Below are positions 1 to 40,909 of a stretch of DNA of 64,000 nucleotides, in pieces; positions within the stretch are counted from its first letter, which is position 1; each line of letters starts with the position of its first letter. The notes beneath the pieces were generated by a model. The model made no database searches and had not been told where the DNA came from. It was given only the letters and a program-made list of their open reading frames with translations. Source of the stretch: an uncultured Verrucomicrobiales bacterium (GTDB lineage: Bacteria > Verrucomicrobiota > Verrucomicrobiia > Verrucomicrobiales > DEV007). The stretch covers positions 1 to 64,000 of the forward strand of contig CALLLI010000224.1 in the NCBI GenBank assembly GCA_938082635.1, read 5' to 3'. The translations under genes and the position numbers were made by a program.

Positions 1-3000
1 ATTGTTGGTCTCTTCAGCGTTGACCCAGAAGGACCAGGTGAAGTCGGAGTCGAGCGTCTGAGCCGGGATCGTTCCAAGATCCAAGTGATCAGCTGCGGTA
101 GAGACATACTCCGCAGGCCAGTAGCCTTCCAGACCAGCAACCCCGCCGCCGCCGCCGACTGCGATTTGTTCGCCAAGGGAGGCTCCATTGAAGAGGAGAC
201 CCACTTCATCCGCAGACAGACCGCGATTCCAGACGGCCACGTCATCAATGAGACCATTCCAGGTGCGGCCGTTGCCACCACCGTCAGCGTTCTCACCAAT
301 CATCATTGGCCACTCGTTGCCCTGGGTGCCACCTGCTGGTGCTTCACCAGCAAGGACGCCGTCGAGGTAGTAGTTAGAGCCATCAGGGCCATTCGTGATG
401 ATCACGTGGTGAATCTCACCATCATTGACGTCTGGGCCATCAACCATGTCGGCACCAGAATTCGCATTATCGGCCTTTGGGCCTGCAACAGGTCCAAGAT
501 TATCGGCATCACCGCGGCGGTGGATGCGCCAGTTGCTGCCTTCACCCTTAGTGACCAGCGCCTGCCAGTTCTTGTCGAAGGAATCAACGCGGAACCAAGC
601 GGATACTGAGAAGTTGCCTTCAGGGAAGTCGAACAACTCTTCGTTCTCGACCGGCGTGATCACATGGTTTGCACCATTAAGATCAATGCCTTGACCAAAC
701 TGGCCGTCAGCGAACTCGATTGCATCACCAACTCCAGTTCCATGACTGTCACCTGCCTTATCTTCGAGATCTCCATCGAATGGGAAGTAAGCGATGAGGC
801 CTTGTCCCAAATCATCACCATCACCATCACCATCACCACTACTAGCAAAGATGCCCGTGATCTGGATATCAGTAAGCGCCTCGTTGTAGATCCGGACCTC
901 ATCGAGGTCACCACTGAAGAAGCGGGTATCACCGGCCCTCGTCGAGCCAATGGTGATCTCTGCATCGACAGCGACACCACCTTTATCGGCTGCTGTTTGC
1001 ACCTGGACACCATCAACAAAGATCGTTTGGACACCTTCGTCAAAACGGTAGGCCACATGCTGCCATTCCCCGACAACAACGCCGCCGCCAGTAATGTCAT
1101 TGCCCCAGTGACCAATGTGGAAGTTCGCATTGCGAATCCCATTGTGAAGGACGTTTTGGTCCTCAACCTGACCAAAGATCATGTTGTCGCCAGTCGTGTT
1201 CGCAGCGCGCACCCATGTCACCATGGTGTAGGGGCCTTCGGCAATATTCACACCGCCTGCGTCTAGCCCTGTTGCCACATACTGGGCATCAGCTCCGGCC
1301 GCAGCCTCTTCGACAAAGTTCAGGTAACCGCTGTCACCAACGCCGCCAGAGGCTACCCATGCCGCTCCGTGAGCATTTGTCAGCGTGCCGTTTCCACCCG
1401 TGCCGCCATTGCCGATGTCAGTACCACTGCCTTCGTTGAAGTCATACTGTACCACGGCATCTCCAATGCTATTGATGATGTCAGGGAGTGAAGGGCTATC
1501 CGCACTGGTGGGATCGTAGTTGCCCGCGACTTCAGCGCTGTCGCCAAATCCATCACCATCGGTATCCCCACTTAGAGGATTGGTCCCGCGGGTGACTTCG
1601 TCACCGTCTTCGAGGCCGTCGCCATCAGTATCCTTATCCTGAGGATCGGTCATGTACTGGCTGACTTCAAGCTTATCGGAAAGACCGTCGCCATCACTAT
1701 CTGGATCTTGTCCTGTCGCAAACGGATCGAGGACTCTGCCTGCGTTATCTATGAGGAAAGGAACCTCAACTTCAAGGTCGAGAACTCTTCCATAGAACTG
1801 AATGTCATCCAGGATGCCATCCAATCCGAGAGCACCGTCCGACCCAAAGGCTCCCGCGTAAAAGGTACCATCACTAGCCGGTACTGAGACATCATCACTG
1901 GCCACGACAACACCATCGAGAACAATGCTTCCCACCGTGCCATCATAAATCATGGCTACATGATAGGTCTCGCCTATCTCGATAGGCGCTCCAGAAGTGC
2001 TGAAGAGAATCGTTTCTTCACCAAACCAGTGGAGATCGCCGCCGGCAAGAAGCAGTGCCGCTTCTGGAGTGCCCTCTCCTTGACCAACCAAGGTACGCAA
2101 ATCAGCAGGCAAGCCTCCTAGTTCATTCGCTTGGAAGAAGAAGGAAACACTATACTGATCTAGCGGGAATCCCGCATCAAACCGCAACAGCCCGCCACCA
2201 TTGACTGTCATTGAGCTACCCTCACCAGAGAGAGCCGCCCCGCCCAAAGCGAGACTACCGCTATTCTCGTCATAGACGCCTAGATACTGATTCGTCGTCG
2301 TATCTGTCGCGTCCGTGCTTCCTGCGGCGTCGTCCAGTGGGTAGTGCGCGAGTGGTCCGTCAGGATTCGGAATCAGCGCAGTGATCGCCACGACGATCTC
2401 TTTATCATCGGCATCAGGATCATCCGTGGTGTAGGAGACGGTCGCGTTGAAGGTGCCCAGTTGTTGGAAACCATTGAAGGTCATGTTAATCGCGGCCTTA
2501 CTATCAGGTGCAATAGCGGTCGGAGAATCGACGATCGTGAAATGATCCATGTCTGCACCAGCAAGAGTCACATTGGAAATATTCAGTGGCTGGGTATCAC
2601 CCGTGTTGCTGATATTGATGGCAAAGGTTTGCTCCGTTTCGGGAAGCACGTCCCTTAGAGTGACCGACTTGGAGCCGGAAACATTCGGATCGGAAGGGTC
2701 TAGCGCTGTCTCAACGCTCGTGCCGTCGCCACCATTCCAGAGCTGCATGATCTCTTCGTCTGTAAGCGGGCGATTCCACATGGCGACATCATCAATGTTG
2801 CCTTCCCAGGTCCGATCGGCGGTATCCGGGTTCTGACCAATCATCATGGGCATGACATTGCCCTCTGGGTTAATGCTATCTTCGGTCGCATCCTCGGTGC
2901 CATTCACCCAGAAATCGTGTTTGTCATTCTCCCGATCACTGCGCAGCACGAGATGATACCACGTGCCATCGCCATCTTCATCTTCCGATGCTTCGATGAC

Positions 3001-3570
3001 TCCATCAGGGGTGTCCCCATTGCCGCCATTGCCGGTAAACGTTCTGCCATCACCACGACGATGGATACGCCATTGATTCTGCTCCCCTTTGGCAACAGGG
3101 GCCTGCCAGCCTTTGGTAAATTGATCGACCGTGACCCAGACGGAAACGGTAAAGCCTTTCAGATCGGGATCCTCTTCTTCGGGATCATCTTCATCCAAGT
3201 CATCAATCGCGCCGAAATCGAAGCGATCCTCCAACTCCAGAGGAGTCTCGACATAGAATGCGTCCGCGAATTTGCCGCTCTGGCCAAACTTTCCAGGAAC
3301 GTAAGTCGCCTCTGCCTCTTCCAAATCGGCGAGATTCTCGGGCATATTCTGATGGTTTCCTTCCCAGATCTTACCGACGCCATGGGCGGGTGGATCTGAT
3401 TCAGATTTGTCCTCTAAATCTCCGTCAAACGGCCAGTAGCCGACGAGGCCGTCCGAAAGTTCCGCTTGAGCTAGCGGGCCTGATAAGACCAGTGCAAAGC
3501 AGCCCAGTAGGAGCGCAAGCCCTGTTCTAGCCCGCTTGGCGAGCCAGTTAAAATCATGGGTGGTTTTCAT
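1..3570 (-). CDS. Secreted multi-LamG (jelly-roll) surface protein, C-terminus beyond the window
   Basis: An open frame of 1190 codons runs without a stop from an ATG at 3570 to the left edge. Residues 1-35 form a signal peptide with a long hydrophobic core ending in an AQA-type cleavage site. Then come LamG/concanavalin-like jelly-roll modules at about 37-278, 410-595, 707-905 and 917-1147, with a fifth starting near 1150; several contain the typical 'IDDVAVWNRGL' or 'LDEVRIYNEAL' end motif. Residues about 294-407 resemble a choice-of-anchor/Hydin-like Ig domain. Residues about 618-680 hold thrombospondin type 3-like calcium-binding repeats (DPDSDGDGLSD and similar). Known family role: adhesion or glycan binding at the cell surface; the ligand cannot be told. 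No clear Shine-Dalgarno was seen. The missing C-terminus could carry a sorting signal. Confidence 0.85.
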   Translation of the reverse strand, partial: MKTTHDFNWLAKRARTGLALLLGCFALVLSGPLAQAELSDGLVGYWPFDGDLEDKSESDPPAHGVGKIWEGNHQNMPENLADLEEAEATYVPGKFGQSGKFADAFYVETPLELEDRFDFGAIDDLDEDDPEEEDPDLKGFTVSVWVTVDQFTKGWQAPVAKGEQNQWRIHRRGDGRTFTGNGGNGDTPDGVIEASEDEDGDGTWYHLVLRSDRENDKHDFWVNGTEDATEDSINPEGNVMPMMIGQNPDTADRTWEGNIDDVAMWNRPLTDEEIMQLWNGGDGTSVETALDPSDPNVSGSKSVTLRDVLPETEQTFAINISNTGDTQPLNISNVTLAGADMDHFTIVDSPTAIAPDSKAAINMTFNGFQQLGTFNATVSYTTDDPDADDKEIVVAITALIPNPDGPLAHYPLDDAAGSTDATDTTTNQYLGVYDENSGSLALGGAALSGEGSSMTVNGGGLLRFDAGFPLDQYSVSFFFQANELGGLPADLRTLVGQGEGTPEAALLLAGGDLHWFGEETILFSTSGAPIEIGETYHVAMIYDGTVGSIVLDGVVVASDDVSVPASDGTFYAGAFGSDGALGLDGILDDIQFYGRVLDLEVEVPFLIDNAGRVLDPFATGQDPDSDGDGLSDKLEVSQYMTDPQDKDTDGDGLEDGDEVTRGTNPLSGDTDGDGFGDSAEVAGNYDPTSADSPSLPDIINSIGDAVVQYDFNEGSGTDIGNGGTGGNGTLTNAHGAAWVASGGVGDSGYLNFVEEAAAGADAQYVATGLDAGGVNIAEGPYTMVTWVRAANTTGDNMIFGQVEDQNVLHNGIRNANFHIGHWGNDITGGGVVVGEWQHVAYRFDEGVQTIFVDGVQVQTAADKGGVAVDAEITIGSTRAGDTRFFSGDLDEVRIYNEALTDIQITGIFASSGDGDGDGDDLGQGLIAYFPFDGDLEDKAGDSHGTGVGDAIEFADGQFGQGIDLNGANHVITPVENEELFDFPEGNFSVSAWFRVDSFDKNWQALVTKGEGSNWRIHRRGDADNLGPVAGPKADNANSGADMVDGPDVNDGEIHHVIITNGPDGSNYYLDGVLAGEAPAGGTQGNEWPMMIGENADGGGNGRTWNGLIDDVAVWNRGLSADEVGLLFNGASLGEQIAVGGGGGVAGLEGYWPAEYVSTAADHLDLGTIPAQTLDSDFTWSFWVNAEETNN
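811..837. repeat. Hexanucleotide microsatellite (ATCACC)4 inside the LamG gene
   Basis: Four tandem copies of ATCACC on the plus strand (GGTGAT in the gene) encode an acidic Asp-Gly linker between the third and fourth LamG modules. A six-base unit keeps the frame, so copy-number change would alter only linker length. Confidence 0.8.
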
Positions 3571-3795
3571 GAGTATGGTGATGGTTTGGGGTTTGTATCT
3601 TGTCACGAATGCAGGGACACGATGTCATGAACCTACCTGAAACGACAAGAAGACGTATTTACCAGTATAGCACTGCAGGGTGTAAAGGCTAAACGAGGCC
3701 ACTTACGAATACTTAACCGTTGGCTTTCCCTCCTTTCACGACGCAAGAAGCCGCGACGTTTCGCATTGCACCGCTTTTCATGCTAATCTATCACC

Positions 3796-6700
3796 GTGAG
3801 CATGAGAGAGAGTGCCTTGCCTACCTGGATAACACACACGGTTGCTTATCTCGCATTGGGGATGTTCTCTCAAGCCGCGCCACCCAAGGCCGCCACCGAA
3901 GCAACGGCTGTTCCCAGTCTAGAGAGTCGAAACTACGTTGGGCCTCTAGCAGATGCTTATTCACGTATTGATCCCACAAAGGATGGCTGGAACACCGAAG
4001 CGCTGAACGAAGCCGCCAACGAACAACTTCATCTGTTGCAGTCATGGCTCACGAACATGGAGTCCGACTCGCTGCCTGCTCTCAGCAAGAGCTTCCGATC
4101 CACACCCTGGATACCGAGCCAACTGAACACGGCATTCTCGGCAGATGGTCTCACCGTGAGACGATCAATCAACAAGGCGGCATCCAAGCCCAGCATGGGA
4201 TTGAAAGAAGCCGCGTCGACGCTCCAACAAGCGTTCGCTCCCGGCTCGCTCAAACTGAAATTCAAGCTTTACCGAGTCGACCCCAAACCAAACAGCACCC
4301 AGTTCCTAACCAATGTGCGGGTGGAAGCGAGCGGGCTAGCGCCTAACGTCACCCCTAAGGCTAAGAAACAGCATGTCGCAGAATGGAACCTCACTTGGGA
4401 ACGCAAGGGCCTGCAGGCTGAGCTGATGTCCATCACCCTCCAAGCGTTTGAGGAGGTCGTTCATGCTGGAGCAAGTGCCCCCGTTATCTTTGAAGACCGC
4501 ACCCACGCTGTGTTGGGGGACAATGCTTCCTACCACGAGCAACTTCTAAACAGCACCGATCATTGGCGCAGTCGAATCTCTCGCGACTTCGGAGTAGATG
4601 TCGTGGCCAATCACGGCATGGCTTTGGGCGACGTGAATGGAGATCTGCTAGACGACGTTTACTTGTGCATGCAAGGCGGTTTGCCAAACCGTCTCTATCT
4701 GCGTCAGTCTGATGGCACTCTCAAAGACGTCTCACGAGAAAGCGGTGCCGATTGGTTAGACTATTGTGCGAGTGCTCTCATTGTCGACTTCAACAACGAC
4801 GGACATCGTGACCTTGTGGTGGGTCAGGAGTGGCGGCTCCTATTTATGGAGAACGACGGCAAAGGTCATTTCGAACTCGCTTTCGGGCTGGGCACCATGG
4901 CTCAAACCTATTCACTCGCGGCCGCTGACTACGATGGTGATGGCGATGTGGATCTCTATGCCTGCGGCTACAATGGTTCGACCAACTCGATCCGACAGGG
5001 TGCCATGGGGGAGCCCATGCCCTATCATGATGCTCAGAACGGCGGCCCCAGCATGCTGCTAAGAAATGATGGCAACTGGGAATTCAACGAAGCCACCGCA
5101 GAGGTGGGGATGGACCACAACAACAACCGCTTCAGCTTCGCCGCCTCTTGGGAAGACTACGACAACGACGGCGATCTCGATCTCTACGTGGCCAACGACT
5201 ACGGACGCAACAACCTCTACCAACAGACTAATGGTCGCTTCATAGACATCGCTAGTGAGTTAGGCCTAGAAGACATGTCGTCTGGGATGTCTGTCGCCTG
5301 GGGAGACTACAATCGCGATGGCAACATGGATCTCTACGTCAGCAACATGTTCTCCGCAGCAGGCAATCGCATCACCTACCAACGGCAATTCCAAACCCAA
5401 ACCGACGACTCTATCCGCAAAGTGTTCCAGCGCCACGCTCGCGGAAATTCACTCTTCGAGAGCATCGGCAAAGGACAATTTCAGGATGTCAGCGTGGAAC
5501 GTGACGTGACCATGGGCCGCTGGGCTTGGGGCTCCGCCTTCATCGATGTGAACAATGATAGTTGGCAAGACCTCATTGTCGCAAACGGCTTTATTTCTGC
5601 CGAAGACACAGGCGACTTGTGAAGTGTCTACTGGCGGCAGGTCGTGTCGCAAAGCCCGATCAACGATTTTTCACCTGCGGCCACCGAGAGCTACCGCCAA
5701 GGCTGGCAAGCGCTCAACCGCCTCTTGCACGAGAATCGCTCCTTTAGCGGCAATGAACGTCACTGCGCCTACCTCAACACGGGCTCTGGCAAATTTGCCA
5801 ACATCTCGGCCGTGAGTGGACTCGATTTTGCAGAGGACGGACGCGCTATCGCCTCCGTGGACTGGGACTTCGATGGCGACCTCGATCTTTGGATCACCAA
5901 CCGCACCGCACCGCGCACGCGACTCATGCTCAATCAGAGCAAGACGACGAACAGCTTCCTCGCGGTCATGCTCCAAGGAAACGGAAAGACGACGAATCGC
6001 GATGCGATTGGTGCCCGTGTCGAGGTGCTAGGGCTGTCCAAACCCAGCATTCAGACGAAGCATGCAGGCGAGAGCTTCCTTTCCCAATCCAGTGGGTGGA
6101 CGCACTTCGGACTCGGCAAGCAACAAGGCAAAGTCAACGTGTTGGTGCGCTGGCCAAACGCCGCAGCAGAAACCTTCTCAGCGCTCGGAGTGAATGGCCG
6201 CTACATTCTCAAACAAGGAAGCGGACGAGCCCGATCATGGACCCCACCGAAGAACAGCGCAAACTTTGCCGACCACGCAGCCCCAATCGCCCCCCCCGAA
6301 TCTCCCAGCAACGTGCGCCTCGTCTTACCCGGGGGCCTACCACTGATCGAACTCACGCAGTGGCAAGTGGGCGGCAAGGAGTCAGAGCTCGTTTTAGAGA
6401 GCAAGCCGACGCTGATCAATGTGTGGGCGACCTGGTGCCAACCATGCCTTACAGAAATTGCAGCGTGGTCAAAAGAATCGAAGATCTTTGCCAAGGCAGG
6501 CCTCAACATCCTCACGCTCAATGCTGATGAAGACGACGCCGATCGAAAGAAGAGCGCTGCCGTGCTCAAACGATTAGGCTCTCCCTACCCAGCAGCCGTT
6601 GCCACAAACACAACCATTCGCCGGCTGGATATTCTTCAACGGGCAACCGTTGATCTCTGGGAGCCACTCCCCGTGCCTTCCAGCTTCCTAGTCGATTCTC

Positions 6701-7692
6701 AGGGTTATGTCAGGATCATCTACAAAGGTGGCGTCAGCTCTAGTCAACTGATCGAAGATCTCAAACTCTTGTCTGCCAAACCAGCAGCGTTGCGTGATGC
6801 GGCGGTCCCCTTCCCTGGCGTCTGGACCCATGAGCCTTCGGCACCAGAACCGCTTCGCGTCACCACTCAGTTCGTCGACCACAATCTTGTGCACGATGGC
6901 CTAGCCTATCTCCGGAAGGCCACAAAGCTTGATCAGAAGTATCGGCCCATGGAATTTGGCAACGTCGCTCTAGCAGACAGACTATTCGTCGCTGCAACTC
7001 TCCTCCGGGCGCAAGGCGAAATCAAAGGCGCCATCGGCACTTACGAAGATGCACTCAAACTCAATCCCAAAGATCAACGCATCCGGGGAGATCTCGCAGA
7101 TGTCTACGAGAAACAGGGACAGGCCGGAAAGGCAATTTTAGAACTGAAGCGATTGCTCGCCGCCAATCCAAGCGATCAGAAACTCGCAGCGAAACTCGCC
7201 GTGATGCTGGTGCGAACCAATCAGTCGAAAGACGCCCTGCGCTTGTTAGACCAACTCGTCAAATTACAACACACCAATGTGACCCTGCGATTCTATCACG
7301 GCGTGGCGCAACAGCGTACAGGCAATTTGTCAGGGGCTATCGCGAGCTTCGAACTCGCCCACAAGCTCGATCCCGCTCATGCCCTCTCCGCGAATAGCCT
7401 CGCCTGGATCGGTGCCACGCATCCCAAGGCGACGTATCGCAATGGCAAGCGCGCGGTGACCCTTGCCCAACAACTTTGCGAGCGCACTCAATACAGGAAT
7501 CCCTCCTTTCTCATGACGCTGGCTGCTGCTCAGGCTGAAGTCGGCACCTTTCCAGCGGCAGCCAAGACGATTCAGCAGGCGATCTCAGTCATGCGTGCGG
7601 CCAAACAGAAACGGCCTGCCGACGTGAAGGTACTCGAGACGCGCCTCAAGCTCTACCAGTCCGGGAAGCATTTCCGAGACGCCAGTCTCTAA
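3796..7692 (+). CDS. CRTAC1-like VCBS/UnbV-ASPIC/thioredoxin/TPR protein, probable selenoprotein (Sec609 at TGA 5620-5622)
   Basis: Two long open frames, 3796-5619 and 5623-7692, lie in the same frame and are separated only by a TGA at 5620-5622. Read through, they give one 1298-residue protein. Start: GTG at 3796, or ATG at 3802; a signal peptide follows. Residues about 270-680 hold VCBS/FG-GAP repeats (DYDNDGDLDLYVAND and relatives). Residues about 725-800 match UnbV/ASPIC. Residues about 840-990 are a TlpA-like thioredoxin domain with WCQPC (Cys881, Cys884). Residues about 1060-1260 are TPRs. The TGA falls in a stretch that reads naturally on both sides (AEDTGDL-U-SVYWRQVVSQ), and a fdhF-like stem-loop lies at 5634-5650. 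The family is abundant in PVC bacteria and its function is poorly known. Alternatives are a recent nonsense mutation or a sequencing error; the absence of any other lesion and the hairpin favour Sec. Confidence 0.72.
5634..5650 (+). promoter_or_regulatory. Candidate bacterial SECIS stem-loop after TGA 5620-5622
   Basis: GCGGCA (5634-5639) pairs with TGTCGC (5645-5650), six base pairs including one G-U, closing a five-base loop GGTCG. Seventeen bases separate the TGA from the loop. Known bacterial SECIS elements lie directly after the UGA, with an apical loop about 16-37 bases away and a G in its first two positions; E. coli fdhF has a GGUCU loop at nearly the same distance. Pairing was done by eye. 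Confidence 0.65.
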
Positions 7693-7700
7693 GGCTGGGC

Positions 7701-8325
7701 AGGGCTTACGCATGAACAGATGAAGATAACCTTACATTTTGCCTTAATTATAACTGGTGCTTTCATGTGTAATTATTAGAGGGAACTTATGGACGAGCCA
7801 CCTCTCTCAGAAAGCCACAAGCTAGCTTCATCACGGCATGAACCACGAAAGGCACGAAATACACGAAAAGTTGCTCTACAAAGATGAGGTTTACGCCATT
7901 CAAGGTGCCATCTTTGAAGTCTACAAGGAAATGGGCTGTGGTTATCTCGAAGCGGTTTATCAAGAGTGCTTGGAGAAAGAGCTTCGTCTAAGACACATTC
8001 CATTCGTGGCGCAGAGCGAACTCACACTATCTTATAAGGGAATGTTGCTGAATCAGATCTATAAGCCCGACATTGTCTGCCACAACCAAATCATACTCGA
8101 ACTGAAAGCAGTCAAGACCATTGCGCCCGAACATCAGGCTCAAATGTTAAACTACCTCAAAGCCACGGGCTTCAGACTTGGCCTCATCGTCAACTTCGGA
8201 CACCACCCAAAGGTAGAGATCCAAAGGTTCGCCCGGTAACTCAACTTTCGTGTATTTTGTGTATTTCGTGGTTAAGAAACTAACTTCAGGGCTGAAATCA
8301 TCTGCAACATTCATGCGTAGGCCCT
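7701..8325. repeat. Nested inverted repeats enclosing the GxxExxY gene
   Basis: Inner pair: 7841-7868 and 8246-8273 are inverted copies of a 28-base sequence (AACCACGAAAggCACGAAAT... against its near-exact reverse complement) with only a few mismatches. Outer pair: 7701-7723 and 8298-8325 share the inverted core AGGGCyTACGCATGAA and a trailing GATGA. The inner left arm begins at codon 2 of the enclosed gene and encodes its His/Glu-rich N-terminus. The arrangement looks like a small mobile or formerly mobile cassette; no target-site duplication was identified. Confidence 0.7.
7838..8239 (+). CDS. GxxExxY family protein (PDDEXK-like)
   Basis: This 133-residue protein belongs to the GxxExxY family (PF13366-type), recognised by the namesake 'GCGYLEAVYQECL' and by the downstream 'YKPDIVCHNQIILELKAVK', which looks like a D...ExK core of a PD-(D/E)XK nuclease fold. 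The biological role of the family is not established. Length is normal for the family. The N-terminus (NHERHEIHEK) is encoded by a repeat arm rather than by conserved domain sequence, so translation may really begin inside or after the repeat. The gene is an isolated single cassette between two unrelated genes. Confidence 0.85.
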   Translation: MNHERHEIHEKLLYKDEVYAIQGAIFEVYKEMGCGYLEAVYQECLEKELRLRHIPFVAQSELTLSYKGMLLNQIYKPDIVCHNQIILELKAVKTIAPEHQAQMLNYLKATGFRLGLIVNFGHHPKVEIQRFAR

Positions 8326-40613: not shown

Positions 40614-40734
40614 GCGCTATGAGATCGCTCTTGGGTCGCCTTGGCAAGCTTTCAGCAATTCATTGTTGCACGGTGTCTAAAATGCGCTGAACTGCGCCCA
40701 CCTCGGGAGAGCCGGGGTCTTCTCTAGGAAGCCC

Positions 40735-40860
40735 GTCGCTCGGGCAAGAAATAGATGGGGAATCCGGTGACAGCACGTTGTGCCTATTCCGGAGCGGTCC
40801 CGCCACTGTAAGATTGAATGACACGTTCATTCGGTCGAGCCAGATCGCCAGCCTTGAGAA
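40735..40860 (+). promoter_or_regulatory. Cobalamin riboswitch
   Basis: The leader of the TonB receptor gene contains GGGGAATCCGGTGACAG (about 40757), the highly conserved CCCGCCACTGTAA (40799-40811) and GAGCCAGATCGCC (about 40837-40849), in the order and spacing of the B12 element. A hairpin CGTCCG-loop-CGGACG at 40871-40889 follows before the start codon and could be part of the expression platform. Boundaries are approximate. Confidence 0.85.
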
Positions 40861-40909
40861 GTGATTGATTCGTCCGCGGAATACGGACGCCACATCCTTA
40901 AATACACAC

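Follow-up and report, generated by a model that had tools for sequence, protein, structure and literature searches.

A CRTAC1-like propeller gene with a conserved in-frame TGA and a bacterial SECIS-like hairpin: a candidate selenoprotein family of Verrucomicrobiota, Planctomycetota and Acidobacteriota

The analysed window is a 64,000-nucleotide stretch from the 6.3-Mb draft genome (88.65% complete) of an uncultured Verrucomicrobiales bacterium. It contains a long CRTAC1-like gene (Table 1), whose frame is broken only by a TGA at codon 609. The original prediction of 608 codons before this TGA and 689 sense codons after it was confirmed. An ORF finder splits the gene into two ORFs at the TGA; a GTG at 5644 is a possible start of the second. 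The N-terminus of the product looks by eye like a signal peptide, and the protein is predicted to be exported. On the other strand lies a divergent, open-ended gene (1-3606, minus strand) of at least 1202 residues, with what look by eye like LamG/concanavalin and thrombospondin-type-3 repeats. A small protein of the PD-(D/E)XK nuclease superfamily (7838-8239, plus strand; PF13366, 144.8 bits) is encoded directly 3' of the CRTAC1-like gene. The window also contains a cobalamin riboswitch (40709-40870, plus strand), which scored 36.7 bits, above the Rfam gathering score. No single conserved partner was found in the gene neighbourhoods of the family, which mainly contain other CRTAC1 paralogs, TonB-type receptors, sulfatases, and PSCyt/PSD proteins.

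Table 1. Features of the TGA-interrupted CRTAC1-like gene (window coordinates).
Feature	Position	Strand	Remarks
CRTAC1-like gene, putatively Sec-containing	3796..7692	+	1298 codons/residues; GTG start, or ATG at 3802; single frame, TGA-interrupted
CRTAC1-type propeller (FG-GAP repeats) and UnbV_ASPIC (residues 737-803)	4498..6204	+	outer bounds approximate; Pfam, AlphaFold2, structure match
TGA codon 609	5620..5622	+	almost certainly read as selenocysteine; column TGA in 121/136 homologs, Cys in 4
SECIS stem, 5' arm	5634..5639	+	folding and covariation
SECIS apical loop GGUCG	5640..5644	+	GGUC at this place in 98/121 TGA homologs; fits published bSECIS constraints
SECIS stem, 3' arm	5645..5650	+	compensatory changes in two separate alignments; stem lost in most non-TGA homologs
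Cys657, possible partner of Sec609	5764..5766	+	Cys in 78/118 TGA homologs, 0/15 others
AhpC-TSA/ResA/TlpA-like thioredoxin domain	6394..6714	+	residues 867-973; CxxC 881/884
TPR repeats	6985..7395	+	about residues 1064-1200; Pfam

The protein had been read as a VCBS/ASPIC/thioredoxin/TPR protein. This reading was right: Pfam and structure matches give FG-GAP, ASPIC, thioredoxin, and TPR. The Pfam scores were 138.1 bits for FG-GAP_3 (cut-off 26.9) and 43.2 bits for UnbV_ASPIC (cut-off 23.4). The thioredoxin domain scored 43.2 bits with AhpC-TSA, contains WCQPC at residues 880-884, and matched ResA/TlpA structures; the full-length NCBIfam dsbE model scored below its cut-off. An AlphaFold2 model of residues 235-990, with the residue at position 609 modelled as Cys, has a pLDDT of 92.9. 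Its best match among solved structures is murine CRTAC1 (TM 0.70, normalised by target), and its C-terminal part matches ResA/TlpA. In this model, residue 609 opens a helix that is inserted in the propeller; the conserved Trp613 and Arg614 come after it. The N-terminus of a helix is a usual position of reactive thiols and selenols.

The order was sampled with 142 genomes, and named genomes of Verrucomicrobiota, Planctomycetota, and Acidobacteriota (including Thermoanaerobaculia and Holophagales) were scanned as well; the homologs from both sources gave 136 aligned sequences from three phyla. The same-order search yielded about 50 close homologs, and in every one of these a lone TGA was the only stop within the frame. 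The named relatives were mostly Verrucomicrobiota and Planctomycetota; the matches in Roseibacillus come from metagenome assemblies. The original prediction expected Cys or Sec in column 609. A single in-frame TGA was found at exactly this column in 121 of the 136 sequences, within the motif DLU-S-x-x-W-R-x-V-V, and Cys was found in four distant homologs, two from genomes without selA and two from genomes with selA. A codon-pattern search of the genome itself identified nine copies, each an open frame of the family with one TGA; the reversed control gave no match. With a covariance model of this region, nine matches were obtained here and nine apiece in two congeners (in one congener, one of the nine was close to the threshold); a relative had up to eleven, of which the two weakest were close to the threshold. 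There was no match in six tested genomes without the TGA form, and the plasmid and phage collections contained only distant CRTAC1 proteins, or nothing. Four loci (L081, L082, L033, L035) form a divergent TGA-bearing subgroup with DLUSxxW and RTVV-like sequence, in which the loop is a 4-nt GGUC and the stem is shifted by one nucleotide.

The TGA might truly terminate translation or be the lesion of a pseudogene, with the downstream part a separate or decaying gene, as the two ORFs and the GTG at 5644 would permit; this is very improbable, because the same TGA occurs in 121 diverged genes, TAA or TAG is found at column 609 in none of the 136 compared sequences, and conserved residues continue straight through the TGA. 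The substitution rates on either side of the codon argue the same way. In four compared pairs, dN was about 0.06-0.23 and dS 0.8-2.1, with values much alike before and after the TGA, so that dN is about one tenth of dS downstream as well as upstream. This ratio and the identical single TGA in 121 homologous genes place the codon far beyond chance.

A hairpin with a six-pair stem and a GGUCG loop follows the TGA, as had been proposed. The proposed distance of 17 bases is that of the loop; the stem begins 11 nt after the TGA. The calculated energy is -8.7 kcal/mol. The published model of the bacterial SECIS requires a loop of 3-9 nt that lies 16-37 nt from the UGA and has a G within its first two positions, a stem of 4-16 bp, and an MFE of at most -7.5 (PMC13188914). 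The hairpin fits these constraints, with a loop of 5, a stem of 6, GG at the start of the loop, and the above distance and energy. In single-sequence folding, its stability is not above that of shuffled sequence (z 0.2 to 0.9), and its significance therefore rests solely on the comparison across homologs. In a first set of 48 homologs, 98.6% of the pair cells were kept, with three compensating pairs, and covariation was 0.262 versus 0.104 after shuffling (reached in 0/500 shuffles). In a second set of 65 sequences, 95.9% were paired, and covariation was 0.243 versus 0.119 (0/500 shuffles). The two sets were collected separately, but since some near-identical strains are in both, their independence is incomplete. 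At the synonymous third position of an Arg codon, the base goes with the residue encoded four codons later: CGC occurs with Ala in 10 of 12 cases and with Ser/Pro in none of 105, kinship being ignored in these counts. Of the 121 TGA genes, 119 retain at least five of the six stem pairs, versus one of 15 genes without the TGA. The hairpin check that the original prediction had called for was favourable, through the fit to the published model and the covariation.

The genes selA, selB, and selD are all present in the genome. SelA scored 497 bits, and SelB is a protein of 665 residues with C-terminal winged-helix domains. The SelD (L185:1393-3648, minus strand) carries an FAD-type oxidoreductase fused to its N-terminus, according to a domain reading from sequence. 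In the sample of the order, selA was found in 16/16 genomes with the TGA form (in two of these as partial matches under the cut-off only) versus 24/126 others. Of 26 additional genomes with the TGA form, which were reached via named records, 20 had selA above the cut-off; the six others are probably incomplete assemblies. No tRNA-Sec was found in the draft genome. The Rfam tRNA-Sec matches in this genome were rejected as ordinary Leu/Ser/Gly/Glu tRNAs. Both congeners have a tRNA-Sec with the UCA anticodon, and a search with the flanks of a congener's gene gave no match in the draft. The missing tRNA-Sec is likely a gap in the draft.

This missing tRNA is the point in favour of another reading, in which the UGA is decoded by suppression or recoding as a different amino acid, such as Trp. 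Such decoding is highly unlikely, given selA, selB, and selD in the genome and tRNA-Sec in the congeners, the covariation of the SECIS stem, the Cys in distant homologs, and the disappearance of the hairpin where the codon is no longer TGA. Sequence comparison thus points to selenocysteine with near certainty, in support of the original prediction. SelB and Sec-tRNA would decode UGA 609 as selenocysteine by virtue of the hairpin starting 11 nt downstream.

In eleven Acidobacteriota homologs (L169, L170, L171, L173, L174, L176, L178, L179, L182, L183, L184), the Sec column contains Ser, Gly, Ala, Met, Gln, or Asn, and the flanking DLxSFFWRQV-like sequence is unchanged. An unrelated residue in this column, combined with a lack of Sec machinery, had been named in advance as evidence against selenocysteine. 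The unrelated residues were indeed found, whereas selA is kept in 10 of the 11 genomes. In a quick tree with SH-aLRT support only, these homologs group together as a single clade (support 99) within the TGA forms, beside two TGA sequences. The SECIS stem is gone in most of them. The single nested clade, the retained selA, and the mostly lost stem together mark the non-TGA state as a secondary loss. The replacement of Sec by residues other than Cys in genomes that mostly keep selA is unusual. Since six different residues are tolerated at this position, Sec is not required for the fold. The CxxC of the thioredoxin segment is also absent in all eight alignable non-TGA acidobacterial homologs, versus 104 of 110 TGA homologs in which it is kept; the six others keep Sec without an intact CxxC. 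In these alignments, the joint loss of Sec and CxxC is suggestive of coupling and, coming from a single clade, is not statistical proof.

The gene very likely encodes a selenoprotein. Its product would be exported and would combine a calcium-binding propeller of the CRTAC1 type with ASPIC/UnbV, thioredoxin (TlpA-like), and TPR domains. A redox role, the likely one for Sec, is suggested by the position of Sec at a helix N-terminus, the ResA/TlpA domain, and the loss of both Sec and CxxC in Acidobacteriota. Sec609 might act on the substrate of an exported redox enzyme, and the CxxC of the TlpA-like domain fused to the propeller might then reduce it again. Cys657 was rejected as an obligatory partner, being Cys in just 78 of 118 TGA homologs; it may serve as an intermediate partner in the two-thirds of members that carry it. 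The chances of this recycling by the TlpA-like CxxC, in many members perhaps via Cys657, are about even.

Alternatively, Sec609 might bind a metal or a cofactor, or might serve in electron transfer, instead of being a redox centre of the thiol type that the TlpA-like domain recycles. Its location within a calcium-type propeller would suit such a role, as would the homologs with Sec and without CxxC. TlpA-like proteins also take part in copper-site assembly, and the complexes of TlpA with Sco and with cytochrome oxidase subunit II (4txo/4txv) were among the structure matches. In other bacteria, CRTAC1-family genes are reported to adjoin hydrazine-synthase-like subunits (PMC12758564). However, no His or Cys column that could build a metal site with Sec609 is conserved in all members, and the acidobacterial loss of Sec together with CxxC also argues against a ligand. 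A ligand or electron-transfer role is considered less likely than not, though far more likely than a stop codon or another amino acid. Returning to the thiol-type redox centre, it may tentatively be extended to a large family of exported calcium-propeller selenoenzymes, in which the propeller Sec and the fused TlpA-like domain would form one electron relay and the paralogs would differ in substrate. Each genome of some Verrucomicrobiota would encode roughly nine to eleven such paralogs, with further members in Planctomycetota and some Acidobacteriota.

The original prediction regarded the family as one not commonly listed as selenoprotein. A review of May 2026 inventories 119 families and subfamilies of prokaryotic selenoproteins (PMC13188914, Table 1), and nothing like it, nor any FG-GAP, CRTAC1, or UnbV entry, is found in that table. 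NCBIfam release 20 contains no selenoprotein model matching the protein, and no report of this selenoprotein family was found in the open-access literature, the scope of the search, with subscription papers and preprints lying outside it. Selenoprotein candidates from two Planctomycetes were listed in the supplement of an earlier paper (PMC4807772), so a partial earlier notice is possible. The family is filed here as a new selenoprotein family, widespread over three phyla and absent from the published lists that were found. Its Sec is located in a CRTAC1-type propeller, not in a thioredoxin or another usual redox fold. Standard gene callers would split each such gene in two; with some ten members possible per genome, the selenium demand of these bacteria is underestimated. 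The conserved Sec and the linked loss of the thioredoxin cysteines point to redox chemistry and offer a handle on the biochemistry of CRTAC1/ASPIC proteins.

In the fdhF gene of E. coli (formate dehydrogenase H), an in-frame UGA precedes a short stem whose GGUC loop is read by SelB. The present gene likewise has an in-frame UGA and then a short stem with a GGUC loop. The protein is unrelated to that of fdhF, however; the loop is one nucleotide closer to the UGA here, and a conserved lower stem is not seen. Murine CRTAC1 (PDB 9etn), which has an FG-GAP propeller followed by an ASPIC domain, is the best structural and sequence match among solved structures. It differs from the present protein, in which there is a helical insert with Sec and to which TlpA-like and TPR domains are fused. 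The Sec motif is missing from the other bacterial CRTAC1 proteins compared (L037-L045), and the inventory lists no Sec for CRTAC1 proteins. The UGC-containing TlpA disulfide reductase family selenoprotein (PMC13188914, Table 1) also combines Sec with a TlpA-type thioredoxin domain in one protein. In that family, Sec lies within the name-giving UGC motif; whereas the thioredoxin domain of the present protein has CxxC, and its putative Sec is located about 270 residues upstream, in the propeller.
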